DNA of 64,000 bases from Magnolia sinica (lineage: Eukaryota > Streptophyta > Magnoliopsida > Magnoliales > Magnoliaceae): the NCBI RefSeq assembly GCF_029962835.1, contig NC_080573.1:39549001-39613000 (forward strand), written 5' to 3'. This document shows, piece after piece, positions 1-64,000 of this stretch (position 1 is its first letter; each line of letters opens with the position of its first letter). The translations under genes and the position numbers were made by a program. The notes beneath the pieces were generated by a model, which saw nothing but the letters and a program-made list of their open reading frames with translations, had not been told where the DNA came from and ran no database searches.

Positions 1-324
1 TTCAATGCATCAATGGCAGTCAGTGTATAACTATTCATAAAAGCATCTTTCATGTATCTTTATCCATATTTCATCAAATTTTCCTCCCTAATTGTAAAAT
101 GCATAAGGAATCCAAGATCGGGGGCATCTAAAATGGACTCCGGGATTCGAAAGGTTATGAGTAGACAAACTTTGAGGGGGAACTTTGCACTAGGATTTTT
201 GTTATTCTTTTTCATTAAAAAAAAAATGTTATTAAACAAAATCAACAGGTCAAGAAGAGAGAGAGAGAGACAGAGAAAGACTCTTTTACCCGTTATTATG
301 ACATAATATACAGAGAAGTCCTAC
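1..324 (-). other. mTERF gene, intron 3 (partial, leaves the window on the left)
   Basis: Read on the minus strand, exon 3 ends at 325 with AAG followed by GTAGGACTTC, a good 5' splice site. No continuation of the mTERF reading frame is visible to the left, so the next exon lies outside the window. The stretch is AT-rich and contains a short GA microsatellite near 256-272. The short open frames here on both strands look like chance. Confidence 0.6.
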
Positions 325-540
325 CTTTGGCGCAATGGTTGTCTCCAAGTCAACACAAAAGATCATTGGTTTCAGTGTAAGTATTCTTCGCATGCCATCA
401 CGGCGAACTCCAAGGTAATATAGATACTTCACAAGAGGCTTCCATTTTTCCTCAATGCTGCAACCGATCAGCTGTGGCTTAAATGCTAGTAGTCGTCCAA
501 CATCTTCACTGCCCAGGCCAAACTCTTTAAGGTACTGAAC
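325..540 (-). CDS. MTERF2: mTERF-family protein, exon 3 (internal exon, 72 codons)
   Basis: This exon encodes two mTERF helical repeats of an organelle-targeted nucleic-acid-binding protein. It starts after a CAG acceptor (543-541) and ends at AAG before a GTAGG donor (324). It is 216 nt in phase 0, so it joins exon 2 (ending ..EEMNNK) without a shift and continues VQYLKEFGLG. Typical repeat signatures are visible: a GL..EDVGRLLAFKPQLIG block, then WKPLVKYLYYLGV, then a MRRILTLKP block. These match my memory of Arabidopsis EMB2219/mTERF2 (At2g21710) closely. The exon is separated from exon 2 by a 15.4-kb intron full of transposons. There is no stop or frameshift, which suggests the gene is functional. 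The family assignment is firm; the exact orthologue is from memory. Confidence 0.85.
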
Positions 541-2124
541 CTGAATTAGGAAGTCCAATCGTTTACATAAGTTGCATAGTATTGTGGGTACAAAATAAAT
601 CAAATAGGGAGAATATCCTTAAAATTTGGAAGGAAATAAAAATCACGTCCACTGATTCCAGATAAAGCATTTAACTTAAGGGTATGAATTTCTGAATACA
701 GTATATCTAAAATAGTACTTGTGCTTTCATTGGGGACCAATTTCAAAGAATAATCAGATTAAATCATTTGGGGTTCCTAAAAATGTGAGAAAGCAAGGAA
801 ATTGTCACTCCAATTACTCAAAATTTTCAACATTAATAAGATTAACAAGGCAATTTCTCTTACATATTCTTCAGCTAGGGAGTTCATTTCTAAAAACTTT
901 GTATCTGGGATTCCCAACCTACCTGATACAATCCAGTTATTGAATCAGTGAGATCATGATACCCAAATCGCAAGAATGGACAAAGAACACATCCACAAGA
1001 ATATTAGAATAGGAGGATAAACAACTTCATTGAAATTGGAACTTCTTCACTTCTTACAAATACTTGTCAACCTATAAATAAAAAAATTGAAGTGTTTTCT
1101 ACCTCCTAGAAAACCACTTTTATAGGCCCTAAAAGACACCCTAAAATTTGCATGAATATTTTATTAAGATTTTTCCAACTGTTATGTTGATTTCAAATTA
1201 ATCTAATCTAAGATAGCAACAACTTCACCTACAAGGAATTGAGCAATTTGTAATGGTCTAGTGAAAGGACATCTACAAAACCATCCCCAATTTTTTAGAA
1301 CTTCAAAATCAACAACCGGATATTCAAAATCAGCACACCTCTACAAGTGAATTGCCCACAGTTCAGCATATATTGGCCCCAGGCCACGGTAGGCCTTGGG
1401 CCTACATCACTCCCCCAAGGTTGGAGAGAATTTGAATGCCTGCAAATTAGATGCTTCATACTATTAGTAGATGTCCATACCCAATCTTTTCAATTATCCG
1501 TTGTCCATATGCATTCAAATGGGGCTTGTTCTTCCATTTCCCCTACTACTTACATTGACCTCGTCGTTTGTCAGTAGACTTCATGCGCTGCACTTGTCCA
1601 CATTCTTCCTTCTTTTCCTCAGGGAGTTGTCCATATCAATAATAGTTTCATCTTGCATGAAATGCACCTTGCCATGGTACTTGAACAAATTAGCCATGTT
1701 GAAATTCGGCAAGATATCTATGTCATCTAGCAACTCGATCTCATGTGTGAGTTGACACCTAACTCCCTTTTGACTCAGCACAGCCCAAAATTCTCAGACT
1801 TGAGCTTGTTTTAAGCTCCCCTAGGAAACTTTTCATTGCAAAGACAAAGCATAACGAAGTTAGCTTCTTTATATCTTTTCCTAACAATGTTCATTCACAA
1901 TTTCTCCATTCTTGGCACTACTCTCTTCAATCTTCTTCTTTATCTGAACGTACAAGTTTAGGATATGTTATGTGAAAGCATCAACATTGTTGCTGACTCG
2001 ATCTTGTACCAATAATGGTGCCAAGTACATGATATAGACTTCTCCCATTTACAATCTCAAATGGAGAATTCTAGTTTGTTGAGCTATTATAGGGAAACTA
2101 CGGTTAGGGCAAACCCAAATTCCA

Positions 2125-2480
2125 CTAAGATACATTATCACCTGCAATACCCCTCAAAAGGTTACCGAGACTTAGTTGACTACCTTGGTTTTGGTCATCT
2201 CCTTGAGGGTTGTGTGACCTAGAAAATTGAAGCATAGTCCTCAGGCACTTCCATAGTGCACACAAGCTCCCGACGAGCTTCGGAATTTCCAAGCCATAGT
2301 TTTCGGCACCCATTGAAATTTCACAATTTCCTTGAAAAAACATGTCAACGATACATGTAACATCCATTATCCTATTAAACGGTATGTAGTGGACCATTTT
2401 CTAGAAGTAGTCCATTACAATGAATATCAAATCTGCTCCTACTAAATCTTAAGAATACCTAGAATAAAGTCCATGGAAAT
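2125..2480 (-). pseudogene. Ty3/gypsy integrase core fragment
   Basis: The minus-strand translation begins SMDFILGI near 2476 (the start of the integrase core), continues as a decayed version of ..DSIFVVVDRFSKMAHFIP (here KMVHYIPF), and ends with LGNLLRGIAGDN, the counterpart of the SLGNLLR motif of plant gypsy integrases. The middle also matches the ..TSLQFSSAYHPQTDGQ block in degraded form (LQFSRSHNPQGDDQNQ). There is an in-frame stop in the DRFSK motif and the surrounding frame is broken, so it is inactive. Confidence 0.75.
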
Positions 2481-2847
2481 ATCCAGCCACGACATAATTG
2501 GAACAAGAAGAAACATATAAAGGACGGCAGTATGCATGTCTTTTAGAGACTTTGCATCTACGACATCATGACTATGAACTATTCAAGGTCATGATGCATA
2601 TTGAGCCAGTGAATTTTTTTTTCCTCCATAATGATCAATGTTTTATCTATTCCGAAGTATCAGCCTAATCCTCTATGTAGCTCAAATAGGATCTTTTCAC
2701 AAAACAATCATTTGGAAACGTACGAGCATAAACCTTTATAAATATCCTTCTTGTGAGATGAGTTCACACTTTGGATCTCGCCCACTCACATATCGGACAA
2801 AGCACATTGCTAACTATAAGTGCTAAATTGTTTAAGCATACTTTAGT

Positions 2848-4363
2848 TGTCAAATTTCGTATAGCCAAAACAACTTGACAATAGCTCAATCAAGAGAAGA
2901 TCAAGCTCAAAGTCAAGATGAAATCTGAGACTTCGTTCTAGTCAAAGAAGTACAGATATTTGATATATCTCAGGTGGTATAAAACCCTAGAAAGACCTTA
3001 GGACTAGGTACTTTCAAAATTGTTTAAAATTGGATTTTTACACTTATTTTGCTTAGAATTTGACCAGCCTAACTTTTGGTTCAGCTAGCCCAAGGTTTCT
3101 CGACCAGCCCAAGTTCAAGCCCGAAGCAAAACTAATTTCTGTTGCAAATTTGGCTAGCCCGAGTTTTGGTTCGGCTAGCCAGAGCTTGAAATTCGGCTAG
3201 CCCGAGAATCTTCAGGTCAAATTCCAATGACCTCATTCTTTGGAATTCGGACGAATTCGGCAAACCAAAGGTCAAATTCGGCTAGCCGAACTGGGGTGTT
3301 CAACCAGCCGAATTTTGGATAAATCTTATCCCATGCAATCCGAAGTCCATTGAACTGAATCCGGTCCGCTCGGGCTAGTCGAAGACTGCCTCGGGCTAGC
3401 CGACGATTTAACTTCTTTGCCTATAAATTGAGTTCCTCTCTCATTCCGAATTACACAAGTTAATTATCAAAATCCTTCTGCAAGAGAGAGAGAGACGCTC
3501 AAGTTATTAGCAAGTTATTTGAACGGTATTTATAAATTTAATTTATATAGTTTTTTGTTCAATTCCTTAATCTCAAATCTTTCTAATTTTATTCTAAAGA
3601 GAGTAAACTATACTCTTCTTTTGAGATTTAAGAGAATTGATTCAAGTAGCCATTGGTTTGGACTTAATTACAATCAATAGAACCCTAGACCCTTTCTATT
3701 TGACTGAACAAAGAACATTCTACATTCAAGAAAGCGGTTCTTCAGCTACAAGCTTCTGATACGTCTTCTACGGTGAAGATAAGTATACCTTCTAAACTTT
3801 GTTTGGTTTTTCTGAGATAGCCAATGAAAATCTCAGTGTAGGTTTTGTCTGAGATAGCCTGAAAATCTCGGTGAGGGGTTTAGCTGTGATAGCCCGTGAA
3901 AATCACAAGAATTATATCAGGTTTTAAGGTGACTCTGAGAAAACCTTTTTCATAGTGAAAGTCAAAATTACGTAGAGAGTAATTTTGGGAGTGGAGTAGG
4001 TGTGGCTGTTTTTAAAGCATCGAACCACTAGAATCCTTTGTGTTATGTAGTGAATGCCTTTACTTTTTATGTGATGAATGGTTGTATTTAACTTCAAGTT
4101 GAGTGGTGAATGTTGTAATATTTTATTTTTATTTACACTTGCAAGTTTGAGGTTTTGATTTTAAAGAAATTTGTGAAATAAGATTGTCCTACCTAAAACT
4201 TTAGGCGAAGGTTGTCCCACAAATTATTTGGAATCAATGTTTCAATACTTAAGCAATTGAGATCTCTAATTTATTTACATATTCAGCACTTATTTTGATT
4301 ATTTAGCATAGTCCTATTCACACCCCCTCTCTAGGACATCTTAAGCTCTCCTTTTCACTGACA
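2848..4363 (+). repeat. Nested LTR, copia-like, about 1.5 kb (boundaries approximate)
   Basis: This insert splits the gypsy element. It begins TGTCAAATTTCG and ends CACTGACA, shortly after a CACCCCCTCTCTAGGACATC stretch typical of the end of SIRE/Maximus-type copia LTRs. A CTATAAATTGAG TATA box sits at about 3420. Immediately upstream (3065-3410) are about ten copies of a GGCTAGCC dyad, mostly extended to TCGGCTAGCCCGAG or TCGGCTAGCCGAAC. No matching second LTR or internal region is present, so it is probably a solo LTR. No clean target duplication is visible, so the exact ends are uncertain. Confidence 0.5.
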
Positions 4364-4589
4364 ATGGTCTTTGTGTTCTTATTAATGCCTTGAATCCAAA
4401 AACCTTCAAGGTGAGTATCCCCAATAGCACCAACCTCCTACTCAAAGCATCTACCGCTTTGTTTTAACTTCTAACTTCGAGCGCAAAAGTAACATATGTT
4501 CCTATAGAAAAGATGTCTACTATGCATGAGAAGCACTCAGCTTCTTCTGATAGTTGAGATATCTCAATCATGGTGCGTCGTAAAGGCCG

Positions 4590-4925
4590 ATAAATAAAGA
4601 TAACAGTGGCAATCGTTACACATTACAAGGTTGTAACGGCCATAACAGCCATTATGGAAAAAATGACCCGCAACCGCTGTTAGTGGACCGTTATGCCCCC
4701 TGTAAAGGCCATAACAACCTCAACATTGTCTGTTACAATGCAGATACAGGTTTTTCAGATTTGTTTTCAACATTACGAGGCAAATATAGGTTTTTCAATT
4801 TTTTTAATCAATAATAATAATAAAAAGACCGTAACAGCCATTACAAGGGTCATAATAGTCGTTACGACCCGTATCCTAAAGGTAACGGTGGTGGCCGTTG
4901 CAACCACCGTTACCGTTCCGGAATA
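4590..4925. repeat. GTAACGG/CCGTTAC-rich inverted repeat, probable MITE
   Basis: The stretch holds many copies in both orientations of GTAACGGCCATAACAG and CCGTTAC-like units, beginning near GGCAATCGTTAC and ending near CAACCACCGTTACCG. Oppositely oriented units at its two ends and the repeats next to them are the usual look of a subterminal-repeat MITE. The open frame through it (4693-4971) is low complexity and not considered coding. Confidence 0.5.
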
Positions 4926-6330
4926 CCTTGATCTGAATACCTCACGATCCAAATATAAAATAAATTATTGATGAATCAAGTAATGCCTCAAATGCATAGT
5001 GCCTGGACCACTATATAGAACTCAAGTTCACACGTGTAGTTCTTCCGTGCATCATTAAGATTCTCGTTAAAAAAAGCAATCGGCCTCTAGTTACACGAAG
5101 CATGAAGCAAAGCGGCGACAGGCTCGGTGCAGGAGCAAGGAAGCATCAGTTTTAAAATGTTTAACAATTATAAACAACTAGGAAGCAAGAGTGGGAGCAT
5201 GAGTCTAAACCGTGATTAGAAAATATAAGTAAAACATCGTCAAGCCATGAACAGAATGGGCCTTTAAAAGAGTCCATGCCCTATGCCACTCCATAATAGC
5301 CTTGATTTTCTCTTAGTCAACCTTGGCCCTTCTGCAGAAACAATATGCCGCAAAAGACAACACATTGATGTGGACAAAAACACTTTTCAAGTTAACATAT
5401 AGTGACTCCTTCCATAGTTTTCCACAAATGATCGATGTGCACAGATGGATTAGGACTAAAAATAGGCATACCATCCAAATAAACAACTAAAAACTTCCCA
5501 TGAAGGGGCCATCAACTCCATGAACCACTTGTACAACCTACCTCATGTCTTAAACGCCATCTTCCCTTCATCCATGAGTCAAAAATGAATCTAACCATGT
5601 CCTCTCCTAAGATTGATCTTCAAAAATATCTTTGCATTGTGCAGCAGCATATCATCTAAACCAATAAAGAAAACCAATACTTGATAGTAATCCAGTTAAT
5701 TGCACAACTATCCCACATCCTCCAAGATCATTCTTTCTTAAGAGCTAACAATATAGGAACAGCGCCCGGTGACATACTTTCCCAAATTAACCCCTTCTAC
5801 GGGAACCACTTTATCTGTCAATGAAGTTCAGCATGCTCATCAAGACTCATTCGATAGTGTACAAGATTTGATACACCCGAAACTAATACTAAATCAATAA
5901 GAGTTTAAATGTTCTTCAAAGGAAGCCCAGTTGGAAGTTCTTCAGGCACTAAGTCTACATGGGAGGTAGAACATTTAATAGTCTTTTCTTATTTAGCAAC
6001 CAGGACCTAAATAATATAGGTCTACTTTCTTCTTCAAACCGCTCTATGTTAAGCAATTTTTGCCCCTCTTTATTAGATCTGGATGCTAGAAGCTATTTCA
6101 TTGTATGTAATGTGATATTAACACCATAATTCACGAATGAATAGGCGTTAGACAGAGTTTAAGTGCACTATATCTTGGTCCCACTGCCAAGGTCTCCCTA
6201 ACAAAATGTTGCAACAACTATGAGGACTACATTGCACCGCCTCATCCTTGTACTTAGATCCAATTTAAAAAACAAAACTAAGCAGCTCCTTTATTGAACT
6301 AACAATCTGTTATGGACGTGGATAAGTTTT

Positions 6331-15033: not shown

Positions 15034-15911
15034 CAATTCAAGTGGTTTGGTCCATGTGGATGTGGTGTATGTATGACATCCAACCCGATCAATATATGCA
15101 CCCCACCACATTGATAGGAGACCCTAAAAATCGAGCAAATCAATCATAAGGTCAGCCCCACCACCAGAATTTGGAAGTTTGTAGGCAATTTTGCATTTGT
15201 TCTATGGCGTGGGCCATTGATGGTTGGATCACCCTAATTTTAGAGATGCCTAGCAATCTTGGCATGGTGCACATATTGTACATGTTGGATATCATACATT
15301 CACTCATGGGCCACACAATAGTTAGGTACCAACATTAATAGCAGCGGTACCGGGAACTGCCATGTGGCATGAGAAAACTGTGTGTGTGGGGGCAGAGTAG
15401 GGTGTGTATGGCATCCAATCAGTCCAGAAAAGTCAACCAACTCTGAAAATAGGAAGGTCCAAAATCAGGTCGATCCAACCATAAGGCGTGCCATCATGTG
15501 AATTTGTAGGTTTTAGGGCAGTTGTCTATTGTTTTCCATGGTGTAGCCCACCTGATGTTCAACATCCTATAGAATTAGACAAAACATTACAAGCATGCAA
15601 TATCATGTCATCAACACAAAACATCAGACAACAAGCTAGCTATTTTTACAGCCAAACTACTTGCTTCCCTAAGCAAGTTTGTCTTTGTTTTCACAAGACA
15701 ATACCATAAAAATGCTAAGCTCAGTCACATTTAACATTTGAATGCTGCAAAAGTTATCCAAAATTATGATAGTTGAGCAAGAGAGCAACTAACCACAAAT
15801 GATAACGTGGTTACACATATTCAAAAGTAGAGCAACTAACCAAATAAATAATGAACTTAATAAACTGAAAATTTGAAGTATCTTAATGTTGTTACTGTGC
15901 AGACAAAATAC

Positions 15912-16317
15912 CTTGTTGTTCATCTCTTCCAAGCTAAAGAAGCCAAGTGCCTTGGGGTAATCAAAGACCATCGTACCAAAGTCCTTTGTGTTTATACCCA
16001 TTTCCAAAAAGAAATTCACCCGGGAGAGCATTTCCTCCATGGAGAAAGACAACAATTGTGGGCAACGACTGACAATGAACCCCATCCAAACCCTCCTAAC
16101 TCCATTGTTCTCAAGATATATAACCAATTCTTCCAATTCTTCTGGCCTGTGCTTTAAGACACCACTGGCCTTTGTAAGCACATAACCGAGGAATCTTCCC
16201 TTAACATAGATCGATTTCAGCCACTCAATCAAGCCTCTTATCGACCCAAGATCTCGTGGAGTCATGCATATGAGCTTCCCGATCTGTGGGTATGTCAAAG
16301 AATTATGCTTCAACCAC
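15912..16317 (-). CDS. MTERF2: mTERF-family protein, exon 2
   Basis: Exon 2 starts at 16317 after GATTAG (minus strand) and ends at 15912 (AAG|GTATTT). It begins with one base completing the Arg codon CG|G from exon 1, giving ..NVIPLIRWLKHNSLTY, and is then open for 135 codons in phase 0. It encodes several mTERF repeats. Visible blocks are RWLKHNSLTYPQIGKLI, WLKSIYVKGRFLGYVL, NNGVRRVWMGFIVSRCPQLL, and GINTKDFGTMVFDYPKALGF. The P.LL and FDYP positions are typical mTERF leucine/proline signatures. An alternative acceptor 34 nt upstream would put the frame out of phase, so the GATTAG site is preferred. No defects are seen. Confidence 0.85.
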
Positions 16318-16409
16318 CTAATCATTGCCAGAATCAAGACAATATCATTTTCTGTAATCTTTCAATAGAGAAGGGAGGAAGTGTGAGGAGCTGAATTGCA
16401 GTTGATTAC
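16318..16409 (-). other. mTERF gene, intron 1 (92 nt)
   Basis: The donor is ATCCG|GTAATC (16409) and the acceptor is CAATGATTAG|G (16318). The length is typical of a short plant intron. The choice is forced by phase: exon 1 leaves two bases of a codon and this acceptor supplies the third. Confidence 0.75.
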
Positions 16410-17131
16410 CGGATCAGGGGAATGACATTGGAGTTTTGTATGACGATCTTCACCCGGGCATCAAAAGTGGAATGGGAGAATTCAGGGAGTTGCTTCATTG
16501 ATGCAGCTGTGACCATGACATGGTCGATGAAATCAGGCAAGCGGGAGATAACGTTAGAGGAGTAAGTTATGCTGAACTTGGAACCTCTCATGAGTTGTTT
16601 CAAGATGTCCACTATGGCATTGCGTCGGATTTCTAGAGCCCGCATCAGGATCTTACTGTCAATGTCGCCGTCATCGTTGTCTCTTTGGTTGAAGAGAGGG
16701 AGAGGAGAGGTTTTGTCAGGGGCCAATTTAATAGAGCCAGGGAACTGAGGAATTCTTCTGTTGCTGCTGCTAAGGCTAGTGAGTGTAGAGAGTTGCAGCA
16801 TCTTATCATCTTGGTCTGGATTTTGTGATGCATCCGGGTCTTGAAGAGGTTGAAGGTGGTGTTCTTGGTGTTGGGAGAGGAGAAGGGCAGCGGACTTGGA
16901 GTTGTGCTTACGGAATAGATCATGTTGTTGCTCCTGTGCTTCTCCTCTTCTATTCTCATTATTACAGATGTTGACAATGTAGTGTTGGTGAGTAGAGGAG
17001 CCGAGTTTTGGAGAGGACTTGAGGCGTGGGATGAGAATTGAAGGATGGAGTGGAAATGGATTGCTGTTTCTTGGATTGGATATGGGGAGTATGGAGAGCT
17101 GTTGCTGCTGCTGACACGACACCACCCTCAT
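16410..17131 (-). CDS. MTERF2: mTERF-family protein, exon 1 with probable organellar targeting peptide
   Basis: This is the first coding exon of a mitochondrial transcription termination factor family protein, which binds organellar nucleic acids and affects plastid or mitochondrial gene expression. The ATG at 17131 is preceded in frame by TAG (TAG ATT GAT ATG), so it is the real start. The first 60 residues are rich in Ser, Pro, Gln and basic residues and poor in acidic ones, as in a transit peptide. A low-complexity linker follows. The conserved part begins at about residue 170 (ALEIRRNAIVDILKQLM, SRLPDFIDHVMVTAASMKQL, then QNSNVIPLIR). This conserved run resembles Arabidopsis EMB2219/mTERF2, an embryo-essential plastid protein, from memory. 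The exon ends with CG of an Arg codon. Confidence 0.85.
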
Positions 17132-18713
17132 ATCAATCTATTCCTCATGGAAAGGAAATGCACACATTGTAAGTTACTAGTGCACAGGGAAAAAAAAGGA
17201 CCATTTGGCAGCACATCTATAGGAAACATGCAACATGGCCCTTGTGGCGGATATCCTTTCAATGGAAACACTTGGCCCCACCATGAAGATCACCTTGCAC
17301 AAAAATGAGGCCACACTGTTCTAATCAATGGACACCCGACGGTCAAACTCTGCATACAATTACGGCCCACTTAGTGATATCAGCCTAATTCTCAACAAGG
17401 GTGATCTCCATATTGGGGTGTACTGCTGCAATGATATGGATGTCCTGTGGAAATTCAGCAGATTTCAAGGACTTCCGATTGGGAAAACATCATGTAGCAA
17501 TCGATAGAACAGTGGAACAGTGGTGGCTAGAGTAATGTGGTAGTCAACCACCATATTTCAAGTTGTGTTGTCCCACCCACCAAACAAATGGAATCCATGT
17601 ATTGTAATCTAGACTGTTGAAATTGCATGCATGTTTATGCCCCAAGATTTTCATAGGTCGAATGCTCTTAACCATCTAAATTCTCTTGTTAAATTGTGAC
17701 TGCAGACCATTCTATTTTCTACCATCCATTTGATAAGCCACCAATCATATGGTTTGGATCATCTTATCAGCGTGATTTCAGGTAGTGTTGTGGATGGTTT
17801 GGGTTGACATGCGCAACTGTCACTTGTGTGATGGACGAGACACCACAAACTTAAAATAAAAAAGTGAACAGTAGCAAATACCTGTATCATACACATGTCT
17901 ACCTTTTTTAGTCTTTTATTAAAGAACCACCCTTCTAGCTGTACAACCAAAAAAAAAACTCCCTCTACTTACCGTATTTGTGAATAACCCCATAACTTTA
18001 TATATTTGTACAAAAGAAAACCTGCAGTTAAATTCTTTCCATACATGGGTCAGGACAAGAAGACGCTATTACTTTTGAGTTGCTAGCAACTGTAGATGAT
18101 GACTTTACACCTGATGCATACATTACACAGTATTTTGGTGCTTTAATGAATGCAAAGTATAGCTAACGTGGCATGTGCATATGGGATTTTTTGCACATAG
18201 TGGGGCCCACTTGATTTTTTTTTTGCATCCGGCTGGCCCCACTTGATGTTTTGCATACAGTGCACTTGGGTGGACCCACCTAATGTGCCAGCCTGGCATG
18301 TACCACGTGGCCCCCCTGATGATGATTCTTCTAGAAAAGCAAGCTGATCCACTCACTAGATGGGCCACACTCATAGGCAAAGTTAAAGTATCCATTTGTC
18401 CATTAATCCCAACAGCATGGTCCATATGATGAGCAGACCAGCCTAATTTTTGTGACAGGTGGGCTTCATGTTTGGACCAAAAAACTCTAAATAAAAATGG
18501 CAAAACAGCAATTAATGTGGTTGCGAGGAATCCACAGTGGCCCACCAAATTAACATTCCTGATCACAAGATGTGTTTGCTTCGCCTAACAGACCAGGAAA
18601 CTCTAGCTTTCTATTCCCATCAAATTTCTGGTAACAAAGAAGCAATTCGCAGTGGCACACTAGCACATGTGTGGAATAGAATGTTGGGCAGTTAAGGAAC
18701 AAAATGCTCATAA
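17132..18713. other. Upstream of the mTERF gene; no gene seen
   Basis: This must hold the mTERF promoter and 5' UTR, but no clear TATA box or telo-box was picked out. The rest is AT-rich single-copy-looking sequence with GGGCCCACTTGAT and GGCCCACC phrases (18200-18560). The longer minus-strand open frame at 18123-18566 is translated repeat DNA. Confidence 0.5.
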
Positions 18714-27128: not shown

Positions 27129-29429
27129 TAGAGCTGGGCATTGGACCGAGTTGAATCGGATTGGGTCCAACTCGACTCAGTCCGAAATCTACAAGGCCTG
27201 ACCCGAACTCGATCTGATCTGGTACCGAGCCCAGGTCATCTGACTCGAACCGATCCGAACCACCGCTGGCCTAATCCGATCCGAGTTCAACTTGATCAGA
27301 AAAACTGAGTCGGATCGAATTCAGCAAGGTTCGGATTCATTTTTGGTGAAAATCATTATCCTCGCTGCTATTTTCAGTGTGGTCCATTTGAGCTTTAGAT
27401 ATGATTCTTTTTTTTTTTCAAATGTTATAAAATGATCACGAAAAATGGATAAAAACGGTATGGATATAATAAATACATCATTGTGGGGCCCATGTAATCT
27501 TGATCTCATTTGAGTCGTTCGTACAACTTGGAGCTCGAGGCGCGTCTTCGATCGTCTTTGCATGACACGTTACTATGTTGACGTGCTGTGCACGAAACTA
27601 CATTGCGTGTGGGCGTGGATTAGATACTGACAAGGTAAGTACCAAATTGCTAATGTCACCAAGCTCTATGGACCTCACCATGATGCATGTGTTGTGTCCA
27701 TACCATCTAACCATTTGTAGAGTTGGTTTTATAGCATGAGAAAAAAAAATTGAGATAGATCTAAAGTTCAAGTGGACCCACCACAGAAAACCATGGGATC
27801 AGTCACACCCACCGTTGAAACATTTATAGGGCCCACCATGATATATTTTTTAGATCCAACCTATTGATAAGTTAACATAGAGATAGATGAAGTGAAAACA
27901 AAAATATAAGCTTGATCAGAAACTTTTGTGGCACCTAAGAAGTTTTGAACGGTGGATGTCACTGTCCCCACTGTTTTCTATGGTGGGGTCCACTTGAACT
28001 TTAGATCTATCTCATTATTTTTCTCATGCCATAAAACGATCTCTCCAAATGGATGGACGGTATGGGTACAACACATGCATCATGGTGGGGTCCACAAAAC
28101 TTGGTGACATCACTATTGACTTTGTCAGTATCTAATCCGCATGACACATACCTACAGGCAGGCTACAATGTCAGTGGCGGTGAGGAAAATCATAGAAAGC
28201 ATGAAAGAAACTAATGAGATGCATGCTATTTATAGCTCAGATTAGACCCATGTTAGTTTTACACCATAAAGAAAACGATGGTGATTATCCAGAGCTTAGC
28301 CAAGTGAACACGCTTGTGCAACAAAGCTCACCCCATATGTTCTAGCATGGCATGCTAACTCCAAGATCCAGTCCATTCATCATAAAGGTACTGCTATATT
28401 GATGCCCTGGCCTAAGAATCAACTTGATCTAATCATCAGGTGGGCCACAGATTGCAAAACAAAGATTTGGCTATGAAAATTAACCTATTGGCCTGTTTCC
28501 AATATTGGGCCCTCAAGTTGAGTGCTCTAAATTTATTTTTTTGTGAAAACATGTACAAGGTTGGACCAACTTGATGTACGGATTGGATTTTTGTGTCATA
28601 CTGGCACACATGTAGCATCTAGCACATGCCTGTACACCTAGCAAAACCAAACTATCCAACTATACACATGGCACCGTTGTGAGGTAATCCAGACCATCTA
28701 AATGAAACTGTTGTGAATGGAGCAGAACTGAATATTTGAGACGAAGGTAATGTCAACCATCAATTTGATAAATGTTAATTGGATGGTTAGGATAACTTGA
28801 TCAATGTGACTTCATAGATATGATGGGACCCACAATTTGGACAGTGGGGATAGCTGTGCATCAGTGCCACATGATATGAGATGAGTCACCATCACTTTTT
28901 AAATAGAGTAAAACCAGCATCGGAGTATTTCAAAACTAGTAGAAGTATGCAAATTGTCTTTCACTGGTGTCCTGACGCTGATGGAATGGGATGGGACTGG
29001 GAGGACTCAGTGTTCGTCTTCGCACGACACGTATCTACAAGCTACAATAGCTATATTATATAGTTAGTGTGTGGTACACTAGCCCATTCGTACCGAGTAA
29101 ACTCTGTTGGGGCCCACCGTGAATGCATGTGGTTTATCCACGCCGTCCATTCGTTTTTCCAGATCATTTTAGTGGTTGAACCCAAAATTGATGCATATCC
29201 AAAGCTCAAGTGGACTATATCATAGGAAAAAGTAGAAGTACTGACAAGAATCACTCCGGATCGAGTCGGATCGGATCGGTCCAGATTGACCACGACCCGA
29301 TCTCAATTCGAAAAACGGTTGGATCTGAATGGCCCTATTCGACTCACACCGATCCAAGCCATCGGTTCGGTTCGGAATGGGACGGATCGGGTCGAATCCA
29401 CCGGATGGGGTCAAACATGCCCAACTCTA
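27129..29429. mobile_element. hAT-like Pack-type element, copy 2 (2,301 bp)
   Basis: The left end is TAGAGCTGGGCATTGG and the right end CATGCCCAACTCTA (one mismatch to the inverted left end). It is flanked by an 8-bp duplication, ATTATAGC (27121-27128) and ATTATAGT (29430-29437). The first ~200 bp are strongly similar to the left end of the element at 44521, and the last ~180 bp are similarly GGATCGG-rich. The roughly 1.9 kb of cargo differs completely from the cargo of copy 1 and includes a long foldback (27617-28138) and phrase-type repeats. No transposase was seen. Confidence 0.8.
27617..28138. repeat. Near-perfect long foldback (about 520 bp) nested in the hAT-like element
   Basis: GGATTAGATACTGACAA on the left is inverted at 28122-28138, and the two arms match inward for about 250 bp. 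Matching items include the CACCATGATGCATGTGTTG block and the GAGATAGATCTAAAGTTCAA block, which both appear on one arm and inverted on the other. Transcription through it would give a long hairpin RNA. It belongs to the same phrase family as 20983-21503 and 40668-41152. Confidence 0.75.
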
Positions 29430-41303: not shown

Positions 41304-41315
41304 ATGAGGGCCAAG
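41304..41315 (+). CDS. RPL41: 60S ribosomal protein eL41, exon 1 (four codons)
   Basis: The first coding exon is only ATG AGG GCC AAG, then GTACG begins the intron. The plant eL41 protein begins MRAK, and the intron after the fourth codon fits. The 5' leader (about 41230-41303) is purine-rich and follows a telo-box/TATA promoter. Exon 2 is 4.9 kb downstream; the split leaves both parts too short to be noticed by length alone. Confidence 0.9.
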
Positions 41316-42172
41316 GTACGTTTTCTCCACCTCCTATTTCTTTTCTTATTGTATCTCGCATTAGATCGTCTTTCCATGCAAAAATGTTCTCTTTTCTCTG
41401 CTTAAAATCGATTAGATCTAGACCCGTTTATGATAAACGCGATTCGGATTTTCTGTCATTGATTTTTATCTGATGATGAATCACATATCGTTGTACTTTC
41501 ATTGTATTTGCTTGAATTTGTATGGTTTATATTATCTTGGATGTTCTTCGTGCTTTTCTTAGGGTTGGCCCCCTTTTCTGCATTGCGGTAGATGTATCTG
41601 AGGATTAGTGTTTCTGAACTGTGTTGTGAGGTTAGAGTGTGATGGTGATGACGTTTGAAGATTATAGAATTTCAGTTAAGGATTTGAGAAATTTCTGATG
41701 ATCTTTTTATTGTGATTGTTCTTTTTGAGTACTCTGGACTTCCTATACATACTGCTTTAATCAATTGATTTGGGTTGGCCATTCAATCCAACCCTCTTTG
41801 TGGGTTCTTTCACATGAATCTCACAGATTGGATGGTCCTGTTTATCTGTCGCACTGACCAGCAGAATGGATGGCCTGGAAAGTTTGTTACAAAGAAGTCC
41901 AACCGATAGTTTGTATTTCCAACGGGTTCTCATTGACATCCCATTAATATCCCTGGAAATGAATGGAAGTGAGTAAAGTGGTTCATGTTCATATATGGGC
42001 CATAAGATCTTACTTTTACGACTTACTTTTACATGTTGGCCTGGATTGATCTGGTTAAAGTCCAGTGGTCCCAACATTAGTAGTCATCTACTTAGTTGTT
42101 AGAGTTTGTTTGCACCATGATCTGATGTTCAGATAGGGGCCATAAGATCCTCCTGCTGACTTACTTTTAGGG

Positions 42173-42723
42173 CCTGTTTGGGACCGTGGATTTGGAATCC
42201 TCCCGTTGTGTTTGGCACCCTGGATTCACGATCTCCTGTAATCCAGAAGTACCTACACATGGCATATTTACAGGATTTTGAATTTAATTACTAAATCAAC
42301 TTTAATATCTCTAATTAGTGTACATATGTAATGTTTGACACAATGGTTGTAATAAGCCTGTTGAAATATATACTTTGCTAAAAAATGATGAAATTCCAAG
42401 TCTCGGATGGGCCACAAGCACAGGATCATCTCTGAGTGACTAACCAATGATTTTTAACAATTGATATACATGGACAATGTTTGGATGGCGCAGATTATCC
42501 TATTAAAGTAATTATAGTGATGCCATTGATAATCTGATAGTTTTGGGATATCATCAGTGGGCAATGTGCCCACTAGATTAGTAACCTAGGGACACATGTT
42601 ACACATGCAACTCATGGAAGGACCAAGCTTCAACCTTGGATTTGAAACCCCCAGTTACTTTATGGTGCTAAACATACCAGGGGATTTCAAATCCCCCCAA
42701 ATCCATTGTGCCAAACAACCCCT
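42173..42723. mobile_element. Harbinger-like MITE, copy 2 (in the eL41 intron)
   Basis: The left end GGGCCTGTTTGGGACCG and the right end GTGCCAAACAACCCC are imperfect inverted repeats of the GGGCCTGTTTGG type. The flanks TTA / TTG suggest a degraded 3-bp target duplication. The next 30 bp inward also pair (GGATTTGGAATCC against GGATTTCAAATCC). The interior is an inverted match to 19619-20258. Confidence 0.65.
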
Positions 42724-45164
42724 TGTGAGCCTGGATTGAACTGGTGAAAGTCCAGCGGTCCCAACATTAGTAATCATCTACTTAGTTGTTTGAGTTTGGT
42801 TGTACGAGGTTTTCCTTTATTAACACATATTTGGTGGGCTACTTTTCAAGTATCGTATGACATTCCCATTTGAATGCTTATTGAGTGAGCTTCAAATGAG
42901 CCCAAGCTCTTGCCATTCTAATCTCATTCAAGTGAGTTACTGGTTACGGCCAATTTACATAGACCTTTTATGGTTCTGATGTCATTCAAGAGCATTTGGT
43001 CATCTTTGCTATTTTAATGAAAATAGGTGGTCATGATTATAAGTAATAGATAGTTAGCATTGTATTAAGGTTCTCTTTTCTTAAGAAAGAATATATACAT
43101 GTAAAGGCATTGTTCTAAGGAGTTATGATTAATAAAAAAATATTTTTTCCTGGGCTTTGTAGCATGTTCTTCTTTTCTTTTGGCATGGGTTGCATATGGT
43201 AGAAGAAGAGTATGTGTTGATAGTGATTACTGGCATAATGGCTAGTACGTTGTTGGATATTAGTTCACAGCCTTTATTTCTATGTTTTATGTTGCATTCA
43301 TGAAGAAATTTAATGGTTTGATCTTCAAGATAAACCTACATATCCAAAATATCCAAATAGATATTCTCTTTATTTGATTTTCTTGCGTCAACAATTGTTA
43401 ATCATTTACAAGATTCAACCCTCTTAATACATATGACTACCATGGTCTTAATTATTGCTGGGGATATGGCATGTGCTCTGATTGGGGAGAGGAAGGAAGA
43501 GAGATTGGGGAGAAGTCGAGAAAGTATGTGCCTAGTGAGAATTATGGAGAGAAAGTAGGTGCTAGAGCCCTGTTGATGTGGAAAAAAAATGGCCTTGGTT
43601 AATGATTCACATTTTTCAAATGCCCCAAATGCCCTGACCTATTTTTGACATCCGTCCCAAGTCCTTCCAAATCCTAAGGTTGAGGGCTGTAGCAGAAACT
43701 AATTGCATGGTCAAAATCATTCAATACTGCTTGTGTCATATTTGCAGATGATGTATCGAATGTTTTAACCACTATTTTAATACATCTTTGGATCTACCAA
43801 GAATTGGTGGTGTGAAAATACTACTACCATAAAATGATAAATTTCATGATAGAGGCAGGCTTCCCATGCTAGTTTTGCACAATTTGAAAAAGATTGTAAC
43901 TCATCCTCCTCACCTACTGCATTGATATGCAGCTATCCTAGATCATCCAAATTGTAGATGGATCATGTTTCTAAATTACACTGATTGTGGAATCGCAACT
44001 CTGCCAATCATCTCCATCTTTGGACTCAATTTATCTACGCTAAAGATCTACTTCTCCTTGATTCATGACTGCATGAATTATCACTGTGTTATTTTTTTTT
44101 TCCCATCAGTTTGGCTCCTTTTTTTTAATAACGAAAATTCAAAATTTCTTGTTGCTACTGCAGGCTATTGGTCTTTGTATGCCAACTGCTTGTTGCTGCT
44201 TCATTACATGGATGCCCCTAGCGGGGTTCTAATAAAATAGCGTTCATGGTATAGTGGGAAATGTAAGGTGTCTGATTTGTTGTGAGAAGCTTATTGAATC
44301 AGGGACTGGTCCTGACCTGTTTTTATGGGCGGTTTGTTACCAACCGGTACAAGCAGTCTGGTCCATGATGTCATCATGGTATAGCAAGTGGACACAATGA
44401 TCAAATAAGGATTTGATCTGTTGACCAGGGCTGATGTCCTGGCCCAGTAGCTCAACAGGCTAGTTGCCAAATGGGTTTTTAGGGAGCTGAACCATTTTCG
44501 CTGCTGGTTCCAATCCTGATTAGAGCTGGGCATCGGACCGAGTCGAATCGGATTGGGTCCAACTCAACTCTGTCCGAGTTTTGCATGGCCTGACCCGAAC
44601 TCGGTCTGATTCGGGACGAGTATGGGTCATCTGACTTGATCCGATCCTAACCCATGCTGGCCTGAACTGATTAAGAGTCCGACTCGGTCAGGAAAACCGA
44701 GTCGGATCGGATTTGGCCAGGTCCGGTTTGGTTGTGTATATTTGTGTTTTTCCAATGTATTGGCACCTTGCTTGCTCTTTTTCATTTTTTGTGGCATGTC
44801 GACAATGAGGTTCTCTCATGGTTTGTCAGCATGTGTTGGTACATACAAGCCATGTGTTAGCTGGGCTTCTCCATATAGATGATGTAGCCCAAAATAGGTG
44901 GACAACAAAAGTATAGAAATGATAGATGGTTCTAACAGTCCACTTCAATGGATATGTGTGGCCCATCAGATGAGGGGACCGACCTCATTTTAGGATCAGG
45001 TCATCATCATGGTCAGGCCCACCTGATGCATCTTTGTGTTCCACACATATGACAGGCTGGCACATGTAGCCAGTTTAGTGGTGCATGTGCCATGTGGGCT
45101 TAGCAAAGCATTTCAAGAGAACTATGAGAGGAAGTTTAAGCTGACTCAGGTTTGAATTGCATAC

Positions 45165-45352
45165 CATAGATAAACTCCGGTTGAGAAATGATCAGGATAA
45201 CGTAGAACTCTCACATTCTCGTGAATGTTAAGAAGTCTTTGCTTACTATACACACTGTTGATTTTCAAAGCAATTGCAACTTCTTTGTACAAAAGGATAT
45301 AAATCTGCATATGGTTGAATTTGCATCTTAGATTACTCCGTGGCATCATAAA

Positions 45353-45394
<42 letters not shown>

Positions 45395-45520
45395 ATGACG
45401 GCCTATGAGATTGGAAGAAATGGACCTCTGATTTTGCTTCTTCAAATGATGAAGCAATTGCTTAAATGCAGCTTTCCCATCTACAAACCACTGAGCCTGA
45501 CTTCCATCTTCTATCAAACC
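45165..45520 (-). pseudogene. Captured phospholipase D zeta (PXPH-PLD) fragment: two exons with intron
   Basis: The minus strand holds two pieces of a PLD zeta type gene. Exon A (45520-45426) begins after CCCTAG and reads GLIEDGSQAQWFVDGKAAF, then, after a 1-nt deletion at about 45463, EAIASSFEEAKSE, ending before GTCCAT. Exon B (45304-45165) begins after ATGCAG and reads IYILLYKEVAIALKINSVYS then LLNIHENVRVLRYPDHF, ending within a Trp codon before GTATGC. In the parent family these lie just before the first HKD catalytic motif (next residues SHHEK, absent here). An exon that normally sits between A and B is missing or replaced by a region with a CT microsatellite. Retained splice sites show capture of genomic DNA, not of cDNA. 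It cannot encode an active enzyme. Confidence 0.85.
45358..45393. repeat. (AG)n microsatellite
   Basis: About 17 AG units. On the minus strand it is a CT run between the two captured PLD exons and may be part of the captured intron. Confidence 0.9.
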
Positions 45521-46230
45521 CTAGGGATTTAGGGTTTTGGGGATTTAGGGATTTTGGGTGCGGCCGTGAGGGTAGAGAGGGACGGGTAGGGTAGGGTAAA
45601 AAAATAATAAGGGTAAAGTGGATCCGGTGCGGTCCGAATCTGTTCGGCTCGGATCTAAATGGATCGGATATCGGATTGGTGCGGTCTGATTTGAAGTTAA
45701 CCCGAACCCGACCCGATCAATGGTCGGATCTGCATGATCATGCTTGAACCTGACCGATCCAGGCCGTCGGTTTGGTATGATTCTGATCAGATCGGGTCTG
45801 ATGGGGTTGGATCCACTGGATCGGGCCCGATATGCCCAGCTCTAATCCTGATCAAGATCACTCAAGAGGTTTTTTCTCAATGGTTTTTTTTTTTTTTTCA
45901 GTGGCCTGACCTGTTTCACTGGCTGGCCTATTCATGGGTTCTAAAGCTCTAAAACCTTAATTTATACTAATGATAAATAATGAGTAGAATGATATTGGAA
46001 TATCTTTCTTATTTTTTTTGTTGCCTATGTTATTTCATCAGCGTGTGCATCATCCACTTGGTTCAAAAGGAGTGGATTGGATTGAATTTTTCAGTTGTTA
46101 GGATGAACATGTTGGACTGTCTGCCATGCTTAATGAAGCTTTGCTGTTTGGTTGCATTGATTAATGTTGTGTATTGGTCATTCCTTGCTGTATTGTTTTC
46201 TGAATAATGGAATTTGGTGATTCAATGCAG

Positions 46231-46296
46231 TGGAAGAAGAAGCGTATGAGGAGGCTGAAGAGAAAGCGCCGAAAGATGAGGCAGAGATCCAAGTAG
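46231..46296 (+). CDS. RPL41: 60S ribosomal protein eL41, exon 2 with stop
   Basis: This exon completes the smallest ribosomal protein of the eukaryotic large subunit, which sits at the interface with the small subunit. After TGCAG it reads WKKKRMRRLKRKRRKMRQRS then Lys and TAG. With exon 1 this gives 25 residues, 17 of them Arg or Lys, the exact size and composition of plant eL41. All residues match the family as I know it. No defect is seen, so the gene should be functional. Expression is expected to be strong and constitutive given the telo-box promoter. Confidence 0.95.
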   Translation, partial: WKKKRMRRLKRKRRKMRQRSK

Positions 46297-47740
46297 AGAG
46301 TCTTGACAGACAAATGGTGGGTCAGGTATCTCTCCAACTGGACCCTCATCAGCCTGCCAATGTGTGGTTAGGTAGGGATTTTTGCTTATCCCCACTTACC
46401 TATCATTGGGTTTTGAGGATACTCGAGGAGATCTGCCTAGAAACCATATGGTCTGTTTTTAGTTTCATGTTTTGCAGTTTTAGATTCAGACTATGTACTG
46501 GTGTAGCTGGTCGATCAGTTGTTGTTTGGACCCCTTAAAGAGATTCTTGGAGTTAATATCACCTCTCGTGGGGTGGCTATCTTTCTTTTTGAAGTTTGTT
46601 ATATTGGTGTGTTTTTGTGTGTATGATGATGCCTTTTCATTTAAGGTGCAATACGTTTTGCCTGTGAACGATATGTGATCCAAAACAGCCTTTTCTCGTT
46701 GGTGAATGGTATGATACCCGATTTTGGTTTCTGTCGCTATTTCAGTTTCAATGGCTTCTGTTTGACTGGCAAAGGCATGGCTATGATGTTGGTGCCTCAA
46801 TATGACCTTGTTTGTGGATGGAGGTTTCTTTATAGAAAACCCAGTTTGAGCCCTTATTGCCCTTATTGGGCATTGGATGAGAGTTGCATGTCCCCAAAAT
46901 ACTGAACCAAATGGATCATTCTGGGTTTAGGTCCTGCAAAATTAATGGTAACTGATAAATACCTCGTATTGTTCTCTAGCTGTCCCTGTCCATTTTTTCT
47001 ATTTTTGGCCGTAATTGGATGGCTTCTGCCATTCATGATTTTTGACTGACATGGTGGAATGCTCTACCCATCATATTCTCCTTTTATTTAAGAGGAGAGA
47101 AATATAAAATAATGCTTGATCTAGCATTTTGTTGTATATGTGTGTGTTGGTATGAAGTGAATTTTTGTTGCCTCAAGGTAATACACGCCTCCGTAAAATC
47201 CCTATTTTAGAGACATGCTTATTCTAGTTGCACCCAGTTCTGGTAATTAAACTCATTTACCCCTCCTTACCAAAGGACGCCTGTTCTTCTACATGTCCAA
47301 CTGTTGGTGATATTTCTTTCTTCTTCTTTTTTTTTTTAAAAAAGGGAAAAAAATAAATTTAAATCAGGAAATAGAAGAAGCCATGGCAGGGTTTTTTATC
47401 GGACCTATTCATACGGTAGGTAAGCAAGGCAACTTAATTCCTCCCTCTACAGGACTTTTTTAGACCAATCTTACGGACTTGTCTGGAACACATCCCCCTT
47501 TAACAATCCAAATCATTTATAGGATGGGACTCATCTTGGATGGGTGATAACCATAAGACGAGCTCATGAATTTTGAGCATTTCAGCCAATGATCATTTGA
47601 TTCTTGTCCTTTGCACATGATGGACATTAACTCACTAATTTAGCGTTTACACCCAGATACTTTTTTTTCAAAAAGTTTTTCAATAAGCTATTCCTTTAAG
47701 TTGATATTTTTTCCAAAAGGTTTTTCAATAATCTATTTCA
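46297..47740 (+). other. eL41 3' UTR and downstream; no further gene seen
   Basis: The T-rich sequence after the TAG should contain the 3' UTR. A precise poly(A) site was not identified. Short open frames on both strands (46486-46905) show no homology. Poly-T and poly-A tracts lie near 47320-47350. Confidence 0.4.
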
Positions 47741-61371: not shown

Positions 61372-62289
61372 ATGCCACCTAAGACCACACGGAGTACAAC
61401 ACATTTTATGCTTGGCGATTTGTTTGACGTGGCACCTCCCCTAAGCGATAGCCATACGGACCCCAGTTCGGGCCCGTCTCCCTCTGACACTATGCCGGAC
61501 TCTTAGCTGGCCACTGGCCCCACCAATGGGCCTACACCTGTTGTGCCACCGGTTCCAGAGCAGAACCGTGCGTCCTCCTTGACGCCACCTGTATCTCAGT
61601 CGGCTCCTCCTACTAATAGGTTGGAGCAGATGATGTTGTTGATGTAGCAACAGCAGATACAGCAGCAGCAGCAGCAGGCATAACAACAGCAGTAGCAGGC
61701 ACAGCAGCAGCAGCAGTTTTTGGCCACCATGGCGGAGATTTTTGCCCAGAGCATGGGTGTGGCTTCGCTTGCTCCTTTTCTGCCCCCTGCTGGGAATGCA
61801 GGTGTCAGCGGCCACCTTGATCGATTCCATCACTTACGGTCCCCTACCTTTGCGGGTACTCACAGACCCGAGGAGGTCGAGTATTAGCTTGACCGCATCT
61901 TTAAGATGCTAAAGCCGCTGCACTGCACAGAGCCCGAGTAGGTGGAGTTGGTCACCTTCGTGTTCGAGAAGGAGGCCAGCTTATGGTGGGATAGTGTCCT
62001 CCGTACTGTTGCGGTTAGACATATGTGGACGTGGGCAGATTTTGAGGCACGCTTTCACGAGAAATACTATCCCGTCACCTACCGCCATGAGAAGGAGAGT
62101 GAGTTCCTTCGCCTCCGACAGGGAGGGATGACAATGGCTGAGTATGAGAACAGATTCACGTTGTTAGGCAGGTACGCCCCGTTGATTCTGGCAGATGAGC
62201 CGATGCGTATGCGGCATTTTTCTGAGGGCTTGCGACCAGATATTCGTCGAAGATGTGCTGTGCTAGCATACCTAACTATTCTTAGCTAG
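61372..62289 (+). pseudogene. Tekay/Del-like gag, one frame with point nonsense codons
   Basis: ATG at 61372 opens a 306-codon frame with no indels but stops at 61504, 61645, 61681, 61693, 61885 and 61939. The N-terminal part is Pro/Ser-rich, followed by a Gln-rich stretch (61640-61720) and then the retrotransposon gag domain: LVTFVFEKEASLWWDSVL, WADFEARFHEKYYPVTYRHE, FLRLRQGGMTMAEYENRFT, FSEGLRPDIRRRC. Five of the six stops read as CAG/CAA changed to TAG/TAA or TGG changed to TAG. Confidence 0.85.
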
Positions 62290-62336
62290 TGAGCATGTCC
62301 ATGAGGGCCGAGCAGGACGGGGACAGATAGTCCCAT

Positions 62337-63131
62337 ATGAGAGCACCGATGACTCCTAGGCCGCGACATGAGATTCAGAGCAGACCATTCCTCGGGAAGA
62401 GGTCGAGGGCAGATTCATCGCCGAGACTGATGGCTCCACCTGCCCTTGTGAGGCGACCTGATGTGTGGTGTGCCTATTGCAAGAGGCCAGGCCATACGGA
62501 GGTGACTTACTTCACCAGGATGAGGGATAACGGCTTCTCACCGCCCCAGAGGATCAACTGCCAGCTTTCCCAGACTATATCACCACCACCTCTACGCTCG
62601 GCACCAGCTCATTCATCCTTCCGGCCACCCGTATCTCGATCTAGGCCGCCCCAGCGACCTATGGCTCCTCAGCCCAACCGGTCTCAACAGGCGCGCGTCC
62701 ATGCACTTACAGCGAAGGTGCCTGATTCTATAGCTACCGTACTTTTGGCCTTCGAGCTCACTTCCCACATTGAAGGCACCCATATATTTCTGTTGGTGGA
62801 TACGGGATCCACTATATCTGTGATATCATGTTCTGTAGTACAACGCTTAGGGTTGAAGACGACTCCGATGGTTGGGGTGCGAGTTATCGCAGCACCAGGG
62901 ACTTTTACGGATGTCACCAAGATGTGTGAGGGTTGCTTGATGGATCTAGGGAGCAAGACAATATGCATTGACTTGATTGTCACCACGATATACCATTTTG
63001 ACGTCATCCTTGGTATGGATTGGCTGACTGAAGTGAGGGTCGAGATTGACTGCGAGACCCGATTGGTGACAGTTCACGGACCTGAGGGCACTCCCTTTAC
63101 GTTCCCCGTGCAGGTCAGTTGCCCTTTTTGA
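62337..63131 (+). pseudogene. Gag zinc knuckle and protease of the gypsy element
   Basis: The frame (264 codons) has CAYCKRPGHTEVTYF, a CCHC zinc knuckle whose last Cys is changed to Tyr, so it is probably defective. A Pro/Arg/Ser linker follows, then the aspartic protease LLVDTGSTISVIS (active-site DTG intact) and DVILGMDWLTEVRVEIDC, a well-conserved end. It ends at TGA 63129 and the polyprotein resumes in frame-compatible sequence ..[20 protein letters not shown]. Confidence 0.85.
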
Positions 63132-63191
63132 GTCCTTTATTATGCTTCCTTACTGAAGAATGTTGACGGCCCGGTACTTGAAGACACACTA

Positions 63192-64000
63192 GTGGTTCGA
63201 GAGTTTGAGGACGTGTTCAGTAAGATACCCGGACTGCCTCCTCGGCGCGAGATCGACTTCACTATTGACCTTGTGCCCGATGCGACACCAATATCTCTTC
63301 CGACGTATTTCATGACTCCATGTGAGATGGAGGAACTGAGGAAACATATTGACGATATGTTACATGCTGGCTTCATACGGCCGAGTGTGTCTCCTTGGGG
63401 AGCACTCGTGTTATTTGTGAAGAAGAAGGACGATTCACTGCGATTGTGTATTGATTATCGCAGGTTGAACCAAGTGACGGTGAAGAAAAAGTATCCCTTG
63501 CCCAGGATAGATGATCTGTTTGATCAGTTAAAAGGGGCACGATATTTTTCGAAGATCGATCTAGAGTTAGGGTATCATCAGTTGCGCGTCAGGGATGAGG
63601 ACGTGCAGAAGACGGCTTTCAGGACCAGTTTTGGGCACTACGAGTTTCTTATGATGTCGTTCGGTCTTACGAAAGCTCCGGCTGTATTAATGGACTTGAT
63701 AAACATGGTATTTCAGCCGTTCCTTTACTGATTCGTCATTGTGTTTATTGATGACATCCTGATATACTCCAAGAGTCGAGAAGAGCACAAGGAACACCTG
63801 CAAGTAGTCTTGGATACTCTGAGGAAGAACCAGTTGTTTGCACAGTACAAGAAGTGCGACTTCTGGAAAGAAGAAGTGAAGTTCCTGGGACATGTGGTGT
63901 CCAAGGAAGGGATAGCTGTGGACCTTGCTAAGGTAGCTGCAGTTCAGGACTGGGAGCAGCCTGGTTCGGTTACCGAGGTGAGGAGTTTTCTTGGTCTGGC
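63192..64000 (+). pseudogene. Gypsy reverse transcriptase, continues off the right edge
   Basis: The RT is clear: [93 protein letters not shown], then a TGA at 63729 where relatives have Arg or Gln, then [20 protein letters not shown] with an intact catalytic IDD, and [20 protein letters not shown] and VRSFLGL at the edge. The TGA equals CGA with one C-to-T change. Relatives read YFSKIDLRSGYHQL; LEL is unusual. Confidence 0.9.

Follow-up and report, generated by a model that had tools for sequence, protein, structure and literature searches.

Among transposons that carry pieces of host genes, those of the hAT superfamily have been studied less than Pack-MULEs and Helitrons, as the first-pass annotation of the DNA considered here had stated; gene capture by hAT elements has nevertheless been in print since 2008. 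In the grapevine hAT family Hatvine-6, according to the parts of the report used here (PMC2528002, 2008), the terminal inverted repeats (TIRs) are common to the copies, the remainder being in many cases unique or present in few; this variable part is often genic—exon together with intron—and includes non-genic matches as well. For maize, the portion of a 2011 paper that we draw on (PMC3260210) describes two Ds2 and nine Ds-l4 elements with gene fragments and calls such elements rare. Pack-hAT elements based on Bg and Ac termini, which are described for rice and maize, figure among the Pack-TYPE transposons in the excerpted text of PMC8903248 (2022). Among animal Pack-TIRs, in the sections used of PMC8277862 (2021), hAT elements make up 208 of 370; only four cases are multicopy, most on the chromosome of the donor, and one frog hAT Pack-TIR occurs on three chromosomes with three target-site duplications (TSDs).

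The window, a stretch of 64,000 nucleotides of Magnolia sinica DNA, harbours an element of this sort, which we designate element A, between the two coding exons of an eL41 gene:

41304..41315, + strand: eL41 coding exon 1 (MRAK) of the 25-residue gene
44513..44520, + strand: left TSD, ATCCTGAT, 8 bp, repeated exactly at 45845..45852
44521..45844, no strand assigned: Pack-hAT element A, 1324 bp, contig C1, non-autonomous
44521..44533, + strand: left TIR, TAGAGCTGGGCAT, 13 bp
44521..44729, + strand: hAT family left end, matching genome copies to about 1-216
45521..45621, + strand: CCCTAAA-like stretch
45622..45844, + strand: hAT family right end
45832..45844, - strand: right TIR, ATGCCCAGCTCTA, the exact complement of the left TIR (13/13)
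45845..45852, + strand: right TSD, ATCCTGAT, 8 bp
46231..46296, + strand: eL41 coding exon 2 (21 residues plus stop) of the same gene

The perfect 13-bp TIRs and the exact 8-bp TSD that had been claimed for the element are confirmed, and so is its location within the eL41 intron: given where the two coding exons lie, element A is intronic, the intron being that of 41316-46230, ~4.9 kb in length. A scan of the window for exact 8-bp TSDs next to perfect TIRs of at least 13 bp, at spacings of 80-6000, returned two pairs, one of them element A and the other at 27764-28001 within a nested inverted repeat; 20 first-order Markov resamplings of the window, used as the control, returned none. The TIRs of hAT elements are short and start with T/C-A-G, with which consensus TAGAGCTGGGCAT agrees. 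Pack-MULEs have TSDs of 9-11 bp and long TIRs, CACTA elements a 3-bp TSD and CACTA ends, and Helitrons no TSD at all; an 8-bp TSD with 13-bp non-CACTA TIRs fits none of the three. Pfam detected no transposase domain in the six read-through frames of element A, a sub-threshold match to Asp2 (E=0.018) being taken as chance. Element A is accordingly a non-autonomous transposon of the hAT superfamily, of the Pack-TYPE kind, and is most likely a passive passenger that is removed by splicing along with the eL41 intron. The CCCTAAA-like stretch probably belongs to the interior of the family, since copies devoid of the cargo described below, on C4, C6, and C16, match part of it (element positions 1010-1097).

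That cargo derives from a phospholipase D (PLD) gene. In the PDB, the frame 45146-45520 of the minus strand has three matches at E<=1, to PLD1, a PLD1 chimera, and PLD2; those to phospholipase D1 (6u8z) and PLD2 have E=1.8e-15 and E=3.3e-8, respectively. The parent gene, which the first-pass annotation had proposed to look for, was located on contig C14 when all of element A was searched against the genome (1.84 Gb, 127 contigs), in which search 40 of the 4286 first-look candidates—mostly matches to hAT ends—were scored. The match is 95% at C14:11950252-11950815 and 97% at C14:11949356-11949486, which figures apply to element positions 307-860 and 872-1001, respectively, and to exons and introns alike. 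Read by eye, this donor is a multi-exon phospholipase D gene, the exons of which we letter A to D:

44827..45164, - strand: PLD intron 3, 5' part, with donor site GTATGC; 13 differences in 339 compared sites with respect to the C14 gene
45165..45304, - strand: PLD exon C (IYILLYKEVAIALKINSVYSKQRLLNIHENVRVLRYPDHFSTGVYLW); 3 of 140 sites compared differ
45305..45391, - strand: PLD intron 2, 3' tail, with CT array and acceptor CAG, in element A
45392..45425, - strand: PLD intron 1, 5' head, which retains donor GT and is fused to intron 2, in element A
45426..45520, - strand: PLD exon A, 3' part (GLIEDGSQAQWFVDGKAAF...); 1-nt deletion and an ATT-to-TTT change
C14, donor exon A: ends in ...GLTEDGSQAQWFVDGKAAFEAIASSIEEAKSE (read by eye)
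C14, donor exon B: 117 nt, 39 residues (read by eye)
C14, donor exon C: IYILLYKEV...VYLW (read by eye)
C14, donor exon D: HHEKIVIVD, the exon of the active site (matched by Pfam PLDc at E=6e-6, above the cut-off)

The PLD-derived DNA of element A thus spans 44827-45520, twice the stretch named earlier, because ~340 bp of the intron following exon C was captured too; and since introns of the donor are included, the capture was from DNA. Of the earlier description as two PLD exons with their splice sites, the exons and the sites GTATGC, CAG, and GT stand, whereas the exons are not neighbours in the donor: where the intron 1 head meets the intron 2 tail, at a CA/CT microsatellite, ~0.75 kb of the donor has been lost, and with it the 117-nt exon B. 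Comparison with the C14 gene shows the reported 1-nt deletion in the first exon to be real, and the fragment is, as annotated, antisense to eL41, the former being on the minus and the latter on the plus strand. The reported lack of an HKD motif also holds: HxKxxxxD occurs in none of the six frames of element A, and in the donor the motif belongs to an exon that follows the part captured in A. The name PLD zeta fares less well; the closest matches are of the PLD1/PLD2 type and the donor has a PLDc domain, but Pfam found neither PX nor PH in the plus-strand read-through frames of 30 kb around the fragment, an interval that did not reach the ends of the gene and in which short exons may hide such domains. 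The label rests, for that reason, on the PLD1/PLD2 match, this PLD1/PLD2-like class being the one called zeta in plants.

At least four elements with PLD cargo exist in the genome, as disclosed by searches with the PLD pieces, in which 40 of 61 and 21 of 21 first-look candidates were scored and which also matched the donor, a PLD paralog on C17 (81-84%), and, weakly, an apparent repeat within intron 3. Besides element A on C1, these elements are:

C5:100599797-100601218: sister element with the same PLD piece as element A
C2:55389468-55390592: sister element holding different segments of that PLD stretch
C9:25182211-25183316: sister element holding different segments of that PLD stretch

The four are flanked by four different exact 8-bp TSDs (ATCCTGAT, GCTATAGA, ATTAGAAA, and GGTGTGGT), so that the element has moved together with its PLD cargo, to C1, C5, C2, and C9. 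The notion that the PLD piece is an older duplicate at the eL41 locus, with hAT ends merely flanking it, could appeal to co-location alone and has next to no probability: at three other loci PLD cargo lies within the same ends between other TSDs, and the PLD homology of element A stops within the element. For this last point, on which the earlier capture claim had been made to depend, the donor match is limited to the positions given above out of 1324, and PDB searches with the three minus-strand read-through frames of 43001-47050 yielded matches nowhere but inside element A, so that PLD homology was not seen outside it.

In the C2 and C9 elements the PLD cargo consists of the last part of exon A, a longer piece of intron 1 than in A, exon B in truncated form, the first part of intron 2, and exon D, this last without the HKD motif; the HxKxxxxD string HWKNTNID found once each in the C5, C2, and C9 elements (six frames) is away from the PLD active site and was taken as chance. 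In these same two elements a filler of ~70 bp, which A and C5 lack, stands beside exon A (L035:2669-2748). All the PLD pieces of the four elements follow the donor order and jointly span C14:11949356-11951131, and their joints, as judged by eye, show short microhomologies of ~1-5 nt. The PLD sequence common to all four is 78 bp only and contains one shared derived site, at which the elements read TTT (Phe) and the donor and the C17 paralog ATT (Ile). A and C5 further share a derived change in exon C, as polarised by the C17 paralog, and C5 has a 1-nt deletion of its own in that exon. Within intron 3, A and the donor differ at 13/339 sites, C5 and the donor at 12/343, and A and C5 at 15/334, from which similarity of values we conclude that A and C5 parted soon after the capture. 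With between 7e-9 and 1.5e-9 substitutions per site and year, an intron 3 divergence of 3.8% would, as a guess, amount to an age of ~3-13 million years.

The four elements have a second captured piece in common:

44728..44824, - strand: 97 bp, second captured piece; related locus at C11:399885-399983 (genome search and alignment)

In the genome search, with 5 of 5 candidates scored, 44737-44826 matched five places, namely the four PLD-carrying elements and C11:399885-399983. Full alignment of 44728-44824 with C11 gave 91 matches in 108 columns, 11 of the remaining columns being a gap, and the same 11 bp of C11 are absent from all four elements. The C11 locus, at which no gene was recognised, may be the donor of the piece or, because it differs at sites common to the four elements, a relative of the true donor. 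Of the C11-related sequence, C2 and C9 keep ~14 bp more than does the other lineage.

The ends can be followed in more copies than these. We cut 30 loci from the whole-element search, one of which was the donor while another repeated an element, leaving 28 places; these were the best-scoring loci, and the flanks of 1.5 kb would hide longer elements. A copy was considered complete with up to 3 mismatches per TIR and up to 2 in the TSD, by which definition 20 of the 28 places had a TIR pair and TSD and 8 gave no pair. The 20, together with an element B inside the window, make 21 complete copies of 1.04-2.30 kb, with TSDs that, having been selected at up to 2 mismatches, were exact in 14, had one mismatch in 4, and two in 3.

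27129..29429, no strand assigned: element B, hAT family, 2301 bp, TIRs with 1 mismatch

Element B, with the TSD ATTATAGC/ATTATAGT (7/8 identical), agrees with A in 168/208 compared columns of the left end and 98/126 of the right end, and has an unrelated interior with a long inverted-repeat element nested at ~27617-28138; it and the genome copies with 8-bp TSDs bear out the expectation of the first-pass annotation that copies without PLD would share the ends. Elsewhere in the window, the minus-strand frames of 15789-17137 look like a putative mTERF-family gene, and frames of 61942-63731 like a putative Gypsy-type gag-pol.

In a tree built from all 21 complete copies, a branch supported at 98/96 has the right ends of the PLD elements, all four of them, on one side. 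Their left ends agree more weakly (84/69; 80% of 200 bootstrap trees), in a tree where 12 of 18 inner branches are unresolved. Among the four sisters the left ends differ at 26-40 of 214-216 sites (12-19%, or 9-16% without CpG sites) and the right ends at 11-18% (7-15% without CpG), above the 1-6 differences in 87-88 sites (1-7%) of the C11-related piece. The differences are mostly transitions, as exemplified by 25 of the 32 between A and C5 at positions 1-304. This excess divergence of the ends would fit methylation decay, and an exchange of ends between elements could produce it as well.

We consider it very probable that a hAT element captured at least ~1.78 kb of the PLD gene once, was transposed, and then underwent internal deletions peculiar to each lineage, one descendant having become a passenger in the eL41 intron. 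By this account an ancestral element would have taken up at least ~1.78 kb (C14:11949356-11951131) beside the C11-related piece, probably through repair synthesis that copied the donor; a transposase acting in trans would have moved the PLD-carrying element; and internal deletions at short microhomologies would have removed different parts from its descendants. Because of the additional ~14 bp of C11-related sequence and the exon D in donor order, the two lineages have the look of unlike remnants of a single longer insert. The genome search, with 40 of 61 candidates scored, contained no element with an uninterrupted 1.78-kb cargo, and the length of the capture is for that reason deduced from the overlap of the pieces. 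Were there instead two independent captures of the PLD gene by related elements, one leading to A and C5 and the other to C2 and C9, the unlike outer PLD boundaries of the two lineages on both sides, and the filler restricted to one of them, would be readily explained; we regard this as unlikely, since all four have in common the C11-related piece, lacking the same 11 bp, the change from ATT to TTT, and the grouping of their right ends. With just 78 bp of PLD shared throughout, the PLD part of this reasoning comes down to one site, and the argument for a single capture leans on the C11-related piece and the ends.

A capture between two neighbouring insertions might leave family ends near the donor. 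Searching with the ends of the 21 copies, for which the positive control gave 44 matches, we found none at E<=1e-4 in 30 kb around the PLD donor, in 2 kb around C11, or at the C17 paralog loci; the best end match outside the control (29 bp, E=0.002, at L031) was taken as chance. This absence suits a copying in trans during break repair, although old insertions may have left. A gap-filling model for capture in the course of break repair appears in the consulted sections of PMC8277862.

Beyond a single capture followed by deletion, a function for the cargo might be entertained, in which the eL41 pre-mRNA or a transcript of the element would supply antisense or small RNAs directed at the PLD donor. 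The fragment is antisense to eL41, and the exact runs of 70, 49, and 30 nt that element A shares with the donor exons, the longest especially, would make such RNAs possible; moreover, Pack-MULEs possibly encode small RNAs, according to the part of PMC8277862 used. We nonetheless hold this function to be very improbable in view of the intronic position and the frameshift, and of the separate 1-nt deletion in exon C of C5. The 1-nt deletion of A, the loss of an exon, and the fact that the sisters have decayed separately speak for a non-functional cargo.

The trimmed interiors of the 21 copies fall into 14 groups, between which mutual coverage does not exceed 15%. Pfam was applied to one chosen frame from each of ten copies, six of which had no match in that frame. 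The cargo of L017 matched a protein kinase (E=6e-12, above the cut-off), which we take to be receptor-like; that of L023 gave an MRS2-like match below the cut-off (E=7e-4) and Mrs2 in the PDB (E=0.1); that of L021 gave Glycos_transf_3 below the cut-off (E=1.4e-3) and anthranilate phosphoribosyltransferase in the PDB (E=3.6e-3); and that of L028 (L028:903-1484) matched sorting nexin 1 in the PDB (E=2e-16). A DUF979 match in the L013 frame (E=0.054) was taken as chance. Beyond PLD, then, two cargoes have clear gene homology and two a weak one. The right end of L028 groups with that of L018 (97/97), whose interior is unrelated. L016, L017, and L025, of which one is on C14 and two are at separate sites on C6, have kinase-like cargo and one and the same TSD (GGCAAATC or its complement); a larger unit enclosing them may be what was multiplied. 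That these ends constitute a large general shuffler of gene fragments, most copies holding different host DNA and the hAT family operating on the scale of Pack-MULEs in rice, is a tentative proposal, to which we would give slightly less than even chances; if it is true, lineages of the PLD type would record the stepwise erosion of captured genes.

With respect to the known systems, and as far as the excerpts of those reports extend, the family resembles Hatvine-6 in that its copies share TIRs, vary in their interiors, and carry genic cargo of exon and intron (PMC2528002); the Hatvine-6 copies, however, also share transposase coding sequence, whereas the 21 copies here are 1.04-2.30 kb long and no transposase was recognised in element A, the scan of the other copies covering single frames of ten. 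The ends differ from those of the maize Ds2 and Ds-l4 elements (PMC3260210, in the portion used). With the Pack-hATs of PMC8903248, as excerpted, element A has in common the 8-nt TSD, the TIRs, and the captured coding DNA, though family and host are others here. An animal counterpart in the sections used of PMC8277862 is the frog hAT case, which the four PLD-carrying copies much resemble, whereas unlike the animal Pack-TIRs these copies are on contigs other than that of the donor. Neither this PLD capture nor a magnoliid hAT capture family is named in the open-access titles and abstract openings consulted; a 2026 review (PMC13317346) was among the texts used. The kind is thus already known from grapevine and maize, and this PLD-carrying member is new. 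For it the donor is identified, there are a second captured fragment and four sister elements, and the events can probably be put in order, as capture, transposition, and then internal deletion at microhomologies. Should the copies of the family mostly hold different host DNA, one could test directly by what means cut-and-paste elements acquire it.
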